Below, in pieces: positions 1 through 43,940 of a stretch of 64,000 bases of DNA; position 1 is the stretch's first letter; each line of letters opens with the position of its first letter. The stretch spans positions 1,272,501-1,336,500 of the forward strand of contig NZ_CP089291.1 in NCBI RefSeq assembly GCF_022818495.1. Direction: 5' to 3'. Below the pieces are notes generated by a model. The model saw only the letters and a program-made list of their open reading frames with translations. It was not told where the DNA came from and searched no databases. The translations under genes and the position numbers were made by a program. This DNA is from Fodinisporobacter ferrooxydans. Its GTDB lineage: Bacteria; Bacillota; Bacilli; Tumebacillales; MYW30-H2.

Positions 1-1
1 T

Positions 2-362
2 ATGATTCGCTAGAAGCGAGAAGTGCAAGGAATGACCGGAGCAAGTGAAGGAGCGTACGGTATTGGTACGTGACTGAAGCGAGTGATGGGAATGACACAG
101 CAATTCGAAGCTTATAGTAAATAGAGTCGAATCAGAAGCGAGAAATACAAGGAAGCGCTTGAGTGACGGAAGGAGCGTACGTATTTGGTACGTGACTTAC
201 GGAACGAAAGATGCTGACGCAGTAGTTCGAAGCGATTCAATAAATGATTCGCTAGAAGCGAGAAGTGCAAGGAATGACCGGAGCGAGTGAAGGAGCGTAC
301 AGTATTGGTACGTGACTGAAGCGAGTGATGGGAAATGACACAGCAATTCGAAGCTTATAGTA
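2..362. repeat. Three tandem copies of a ~120-bp structured repeat upstream of 5S rRNA
   Basis: Copies lie at about 4-119, 127-242 and 246-362. The first and third are almost identical (I count two substitutions and a one-base insertion), while the middle one is clearly diverged. Each carries a small hairpin built on CGTAC and GTACG about midway, flanked by purine-rich segments containing GAAGCGAG and GGAGCG, and ends with TTCGAAGC-like sequence. No reading frame covers the unit. It fills the spacer between the 5S gene and whatever lies upstream (presumably 23S rRNA), so it is probably transcribed with the rRNA operon. Function is unknown. Confidence 0.85.
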
Positions 363-372
363 GAATCAGATG

Positions 373-489
373 TCTGGTGATGATGGCAGAGGGGATACAC
401 ACGTACCCATCCCGAACACGACCGTTAAGCCCTCTAGCGCCGATGGTACTTGGAGCGCAGGCTCCTGGGAGAGTAGGACGTTGCCAGGC
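373..489 (+). rRNA. 5S ribosomal RNA
   Basis: The segment has the standard 5S layout of about 117 nt. It opens with TCTGGTGATGATGGCAGAGG, contains the conserved CCCATCCCGAACACG block and the GCGCCGATGGTA segment, and closes with GAGAGTAGGACGTTGCCAGG. The ends CTGG and CCAG can pair as helix I. It is the last gene of an rRNA operon whose 16S and 23S genes would lie before the window. A U-rich hairpin terminator follows about 25 nt downstream. Position next to yaaO-tmk matches the rrnA context of B. subtilis. Confidence 0.95.
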
Positions 490-9279: not shown

Positions 9280-9305
9280 AGAGGATGTCCAAAAAGTAGT
9301 CAAAA
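9280..9305. repeat. 26-bp dispersed repeat, copy 1
   Basis: The sequence starts AGAGGATGTCC and ends AGTAGTCAAAA. It recurs with one mismatch at 43604-43629. The pattern resembles leftover ends of an insertion element, but no transposase is near. Confidence 0.6.
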
Positions 9306-43566: not shown

Positions 43567-43940
43567 ACACTCCTATCCATAATTGCATCCGTACTTGTAT
43601 ATTAGAGGATGTTCAAAAAGTAGTCAAAACTCCACGTTTGAACACGCACTATTACCTTATAATTGTCTACATTTGCAGATTCAAAGTATATCGTCGTATT
43701 TCATAACAACTTTTGTCGGACATCTAGTATTTCTCGACATTCTCTCGCGAATCGTACAATATTTGACAAGAATCGTTATCCCTTTTTTATCAGTGAAACA
43801 TGTAGATACTGGTTGTGTCTATGCCGCTTTTATAATTTCAGGCAATCGGACCGAGAGGTAAAGGGCATTGAAAATATGTTCGGACACTGACTAAAAAGGA
43901 AATAAATTGTCGGAATATTCTTCAAAGCAGAAGCCTTCGT
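43567..43940. other. Intergenic region between comEB and spoIIE
   Basis: No gene seen. It holds the dispersed repeat at 43604-43629 and several 0A-box-like heptamers upstream of the spoIIE promoter: TGTCGGAA (43908-43915) and CTCGACA (43734-43740), each one mismatch from the box. Short frames across it have no ribosome sites or family similarity. Confidence 0.5.
43604..43629. repeat. 26-bp dispersed repeat, copy 2
   Basis: Matches 9280-9305 with one substitution (GATGTTC for GATGTCC). No adjacent transposase or second inverted end was seen. Confidence 0.6.

Follow-up and report, generated by a model that had tools for sequence, protein, structure and literature searches.

An ERIC-related RNA hairpin repeated before 5S rRNA and positioned at predicted 5′ ends of stable RNAs in Bacilli

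Introduction

What are three copies of a structured repeat doing directly before a 5S rRNA gene? The question is raised by the left end of a 64,000-nucleotide stretch of the Fodinisporobacter ferrooxydans genome (contig NZ_CP089291.1, positions 1,272,501 to 1,336,500, hereafter the window), which a sequence-only reading had described as holding either a mobile or amplified RNA-like element or an array of rRNA-processing or anti-termination signals. We searched the repeat in its host genome and in other bacteria, and compared it with the ERIC repeats of enterobacteria. ERIC was first described some 35 years ago and, to our knowledge, its origin and its mobiliser are still unsettled. The interpretation we favour, at a probability of roughly 55%, is that the repeats are elements of an ERIC superfamily, kept in stable-RNA operons as 5′-junction hairpins that act at the RNA level.

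Three tandem hairpins between 23S and 5S rRNA

The 23S–5S spacer at window positions 1–370 is filled by three tandem units of about 122 nt, which repeat finders placed at spacings of 122 and 120 nt. The bit scores given for the units come from R2, a covariance model built from Bacillota sequences only.

1..126, plus strand: unit 1, subtype A, the window starting at its edge (R2 match 95.3 bits; fold z −3.9)
123..244 (G000:1272623-1272744), plus strand: unit 2, subtype B, the diverged middle copy (R2 match 96 bits; fold z −3.9)
243..370, plus strand: unit 3, subtype A, its base adjoining 5S rRNA (R2 match 97.7 bits; 2-nt gap to 5S)
292..315, plus strand: tip of the unit 3 hairpin, GGAGCGTAC-loop-GTACGTGA, common to ERIC and to a MITE of the host genome (GA/GA loop in 60-61/61 aligned units)
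373..489, plus strand: 5S rRNA gene, the stable RNA 3′ of the array (Rfam RF00001, 95.2 bits)

The left border of unit 1 was read across from sister operons, and all units of the window lie outside mature 23S. By the borders of the covariance model, 5S begins 2 nt past the third copy, in agreement with the sequence-only reading. The same reading had called the outer copies nearly identical and the middle one diverged; pairwise comparison bears this out, with 95.9% identity between units 1 and 3 and 69.3% between unit 2 and either. Each unit folds by itself into one hairpin, with z between −3.8 and −3.9 relative to dinucleotide shuffles. The tip of that hairpin is the central CGTAC/GTACG stem noticed earlier.

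The outer copies are alike across a diverged middle one because the array is an A-B-A series of two subtypes, with B more similar to the ITS-2 subtype (78%) than to subtype A (69%). Type A units are 97–100% identical between operons of the host genome, and this likeness, together with a copy number of one to three per operon, is what recombination between rRNA operons would be expected to give. The earlier proposal of recent duplication or gene conversion thus survives in modified form.

Copies in the host genome and in other bacteria

A DNA search of the host genome returned 18 copies, all within rRNA operons. Seven 23S–5S spacers hold one, two or three units each, and every 16S–23S spacer that we read carried one or two diverged units directly 5′ of 23S. 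No match was found at any 16S start of this genome, or in the spacers upstream of two 5S genes, of which one stands alone and the other follows a tRNA cluster. R1, a covariance model built from the host-genome units, gave 33 strong matches (94–121 bits) and about 75 dispersed ones at 30–46 bits, on both strands.

Two further observations were made in this genome. Three near-identical units of a further subtype, counted among the strong R1 matches, stand in tandem, 117 nt apart, at positions 621-966 of locus L044 (G000:3040110-3040465), the last of them abutting tRNA-Val. In addition, one 23S gene (L012, G000:1516000-1524200) has a helix tip replaced by an extra hairpin of about 86 nt, CCCACGAAAGT...ACTTTCGTGGG; this insert resembles an intervening sequence and is missing from the five other 23S genes compared.

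Outside the host, R1 matched 47 of 399 members of the class. R2, the better model, matched 84 of the 398 genomes sampled from the class, representing 41 of 145 genera. The sequence-only account was therefore right about three copies at this spacer and understated the extent of the repeat, which occurs in seven 23S–5S spacers, before 23S and in many Bacilli. Among the matches listed in a pattern scan of named genomes were Sporosarcina, Lysinibacillus, Cytobacillus, Alteribacillus, Paenisporosarcina, Psychrobacillus, Solibacillus, Ureibacillus, Halalkalibacter, Salipaludibacillus, Siminovitchia and Listeria, with near-identical units in named Sporosarcina and Lysinibacillus. The matches listed also included dispersed copies in Clostridia, Desulfovibrio-type, Lysobacter, Vampirovibrio, Nitrospinota and Rickettsia-endosymbiont assemblies.

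No stable RNA is found close to the dispersed copies of Clostridia, Listeria and others, implying that the fold by itself does not entail a role at RNA junctions. Clostridiaceae bacterium M8S5 (L122) and Nitratidesulfovibrio oxamicus (L120) have 94 and 32 model matches per genome, respectively; these forms look dispersed and amplified, the loci that we read having no stable RNA nearby.

Selection on the RNA fold

The units are imperfect palindromes of about 120–125 nt. Their hairpin is a ladder of mostly 2–3 bp helices with internal loops in between, GA/GA in many cases, and it ends in GGAGCGTAC-loop-GTACGTGAC. We scored a 32-pair structure on an alignment (A4) of 61 diverse Bacillota units. 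Of its cells, 90.5% were paired, and 29 of the 32 pairs had changed on both sides. Double changes occupied 441 cells, against 144 ± 9.5 after shuffling and 44–106 when the partners were slid by 1–3 columns; these covariation counts are raw, uncorrected for phylogeny, and the loci are related by descent. Two GA/GA loops were almost invariant (58–61 of 61 units).

One G-U pair was kept in 59 of the 61 units, indicating that RNA rather than DNA is the selected form. Elements at the same kind of junction also differ between species by compensatory changes, as seen for the unit between tRNA-Asp and tRNA-Phe, for that between tRNA-Glu and tRNA-Val, and for pre-5S, pre-16S and pre-23S units. The structure has consequently been maintained in place over time, and not just when the element was copied. 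We conclude that the RNA-sense structure is under selection.

Two other structural readings were considered. A canonical kink-turn in the AAGGAA/TGACGC loop was rejected, as the bulge-adjacent pair would be C·C. A DNA cruciform as the functional form is not favoured, given the retained G-U pair and the location of the examined Bacilli stable-RNA copies on the transcribed strand.

A related MITE in the host genome

The roughly 75 dispersed R1 matches of the host genome proved to be a separate MITE family of about 155 bp, whose consensus ends are GTGCGTGTTCAAAAAGTGG and ACTACTTTTTGAACATCCTC. These elements have terminal inverted repeats and target-site duplications, as MITEs do: 34 of 36 scored full copies are flanked by a perfect duplication of 5 bp, in most cases T[AT]N[AT]A. 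Around the rRNA- and tRNA-operon units themselves, no such duplication was noticed. The MITE shares its basal segments and its tip with the rRNA units, and R2, though trained without any MITE, still finds the host MITEs at 34–55 bits, mostly 40–50; MITE-type loci in other genomes (L102 and L104) reach 70–71 bits with the same model. The window itself contains two MITE remnants:

9281..9303, minus strand: right-end fragment of the host MITE (pattern matches and sequence)
43605..43650, minus strand: internally deleted 46-bp MITE copy with TAATA at each side (sequence read; right end by pattern match)

MITE right ends occur 133 times genome-wide at up to two mismatches. Many internally deleted derivatives keep both ends, several of them with a target duplication (e.g., L256, L262, L263 and L265-L267). 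A search for an autonomous transposon behind the MITE covered 20 right-end loci, most of them lacking a full-length model match; these held full-size copies and internally deleted derivatives, and none was clearly autonomous.

IS200/IS605 elements are not known to produce target duplications, so the 5-bp duplications of the dispersed relative argue against derivation from that group. A mobile or amplified RNA-like element, the first of the two earlier suggestions, fits well with the 33 strong and about 75 weaker genomic copies, the sister MITE with its duplications, and the strong covariation. None of the three observations that would have counted against the sequence-only reading was made: the unit occurs in other places, shows covariation and lies outside mature 23S.

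Position at predicted mature 5′ ends

In all Bacilli stable-RNA loci examined, the units lay on the sense strand of the operon. With mature ends taken from Rfam, BLAST and ARAGORN predictions, the base of the unit typically stood 0–6 nt from the predicted mature start of the stable RNA that followed, be it 16S, 23S, 5S or tRNA. The downstream gap was −5 to 1 nt for 16S (n = 6), 0 to 5 nt for 23S (n = 18), 1 to 9 nt for adjacent copies before 5S and 1 to 6 nt for most tRNAs; the gap to the preceding RNA varied from 3 to 355 nt. Exceptions in gap size were a Siminovitchia locus (L127, 47 nt) and a truncated unit (L137). Of 37 single-unit spacers, 36 had at most 9 nt between the unit and the next RNA, an outcome that uniform placement would yield with a probability near 10^-32 if the loci, which share descent, are treated as independent.

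We also retrieved every match of whole genomes irrespective of context. In Cytobacillus oceanisediminis, 8 of 8 copies stood 3 nt before 23S, and all Cytobacillus copies found sit in rRNA operons, none being dispersed. S. globispora likewise had 8 of 8 strong copies 3 nt before 23S, plus two weaker matches without stable RNA nearby, while both copies of S. thermotolerans followed the same placement. The exceptions in this set comprised the inner members of tandem arrays and a small number of units 126–217 nt before 23S, that is, about one or two unit lengths away. In Alteribacillus iranensis, arrays of three and four units lie between tRNA-Val and tRNA-Asp (L111 2653-3147, L301/L303), with the last copy alone abutting tRNA-Asp.

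The 5′ ends of 16S, 23S, 5S and various tRNAs have no obvious common sequence, which makes a DNA target site a poor explanation for this placement. What these ends have in common is that RNA is cut there. As to the second of the earlier suggestions, the processing half would fit the position at predicted mature 5′ ends, and nothing points to anti-termination.

The units might instead be a selfish MITE-like element without host function, tolerated in spacers, spread by homogenisation between operons and keeping its structure for its own copying. Such an origin would suit the related MITE, with target duplications and more than 75 copies in the same genome, the copy number of one to three between operons, and a presence that is optional both between operons and between genomes. 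We consider it unlikely, because tolerance predicts random placement within the spacer, whereas the distance downstream is held to a few nt in front of four kinds of gene and that upstream varies freely; compensatory changes have, moreover, built up at fixed junctions between species.

Kinship with ERIC

E. coli ERIC copies were fetched for comparison. R1 matched them weakly, in register. In an unfiltered scan of 50 kb of E. coli, R2 scored ERIC at 37.9 bits over the full model length, the sole significant match (E = 1.1e-7, the next being 11.6 bits with E = 0.88; the model E-values come from a short calibration). For five of six units, the full-length pairwise alignment with ERIC scored higher than every one of 500 dinucleotide shuffles.

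Could this likeness be mere convergence of tandem G·A hairpins with a GTAC tip, the Bacilli element being unrelated? The ERIC score is indeed far below those of Bacilli members (70–130 bits), and ERIC needs gaps in its basal part. Nevertheless, the match is full length and in register, with its E-value well separated from the next, the alignments outscore the shuffles, and intermediate forms from Clostridia, Desulfovibrio, Lysobacter and a Rickettsia endosymbiont assembly bridge the two, so that we regard convergence as quite improbable. Sequence and fold are common to the units and a genuine ERIC over their full length, and these comparisons show a common ancestry of fold and sequence. In the strict sense, ERIC is dispersed between protein genes of Enterobacteriaceae and Vibrionaceae; the Bacilli units, being in rRNA and tRNA operons, are better called an ERIC variant.

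A possible role in RNA maturation

We infer from position and fold that the unit may function in maturation of the RNA that follows it. The hairpin would form co-transcriptionally in the primary rRNA or tRNA transcript, right beside the mature RNA that follows. There it could prevent pairing between leader and mature sequence, and could mark the junction for, or make it accessible to, a 5′-maturation enzyme; it would then be removed. A mobile form would have seeded the operons, probably by transposition or recombination, followed by vertical retention and homogenisation between operons. Extra tandem copies, as in the window, may be products of unequal recombination, the junction role being limited to the copy next to the gene.

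In Bacillus, the 5′ ends are made by RNase P (tRNA), RNase M5 (5S), Mini-III (23S) and RNase J1 (16S). A common element before four kinds of RNA with different enzymes suggests insulation, help in folding or a shared first cut, and not a site for one final enzyme. Counting against a junction role, the element is optional and absent from most sampled genomes; since the 16S starts and two 5S genes of the host lack it, as do most genomes, maturation can proceed without it. This optional presence is the main doubt on the junction role.

A broader version of the favoured interpretation, to which we give only tentative credence, is that the ERIC-superfamily hairpin is a general, transplantable 5′-end module that marks or insulates the junction before 16S, 23S, 5S or any tRNA. 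Conversely, the excised hairpin might be the active product, a small RNA that is released in step with rRNA and tRNA and whose rod of tandem G·A pairs sequesters an RNA-binding protein. The conserved tandem G·A loops do resemble a protein-binding surface, and a place between mature RNAs entails release in step with rRNA, but this regulatory by-product would leave the abutment on the downstream 5′ end unexplained; of the explanations considered, we find it the least probable.

Taken as 5′-junction hairpins, the units suggest that an RNA hairpin resembling a mobile element was drawn into the making of rRNAs and tRNAs in these Bacilli, which would be a case of a MITE-like element turned into part of ribosomal RNA production. 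The Bacillota branch, covarying and fixed in position in rRNA and tRNA operons, gives the ERIC superfamily a testable RNA-level function, and laboratory-tractable genera (Lysinibacillus, Sporosarcina and Cytobacillus) carry the element. If the transplantable-module reading were true, ERIC would fall within an older bacterial RNA family shifting between mobile and ribosome-biogenesis states.

Comparison with known families

On the window, Rfam reported 5S only, with no family at gathering score over the units; on 20 other loci it reported only rRNA and tRNA. At permissive thresholds, no weak match overlapped the units. A structured RNA family present in about a fifth of the sampled Bacilli genomes is thus missing from Rfam. 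We also considered Bacillaceae-1 RNA (RF01690), which we take to be associated with rRNA and tRNA operons. Its identity with the units was rejected, as it did not match them even at permissive thresholds; Bacillaceae-1 is itself a candidate RNA described in Bacillaceae (PMC2864571). The bcr repeats of the Bacillus cereus group are comparable by description only, being short, with RNA structure and MITE traits, and found in Bacilli.

We found no earlier description of the Bacilli element in the open-access literature. In one systematic survey, repeat clusters within rRNA precursors were flagged and then put aside; B. halodurans and B. subtilis each had one of them (PMC2267715). The Bacilli hairpins are apparently a widespread undescribed family.

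Vibrio RNA AS5 (RF02818) matched an E. coli ERIC locus, between cusC and cusF (L222 209-328), over its full length with 44.5 bits, short of the family's cut-off (96), and by this match AS5 looks like a relative of ERIC. Unlike E. coli ERIC, the Bacilli elements were not matched by AS5 in the same search.

Among the closest known systems is ERIC itself (also IRU or RU-1), which a recent review treats as an element of Enterobacteriaceae and Vibrionaceae (PMC10969869). In Yersinia, ERIC RNA changes transcript stability via RNase E in an orientation-dependent manner (PMC2229807). Like the Bacilli unit, ERIC is an imperfect palindrome of about 120 nt that forms one long hairpin, with matching basal segments and the common tip GGAGCKTAC-loop-GTAMGTGACT. 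The ERIC fold, however, has fewer GA/GA steps, and its target-site duplications are reported to have TA termini (PMC2229807), as compared with the 5-bp duplications of the host-genome MITE. Finally, ERIC is dispersed between protein genes, whereas the Bacilli form is fixed before rRNA and tRNA genes.
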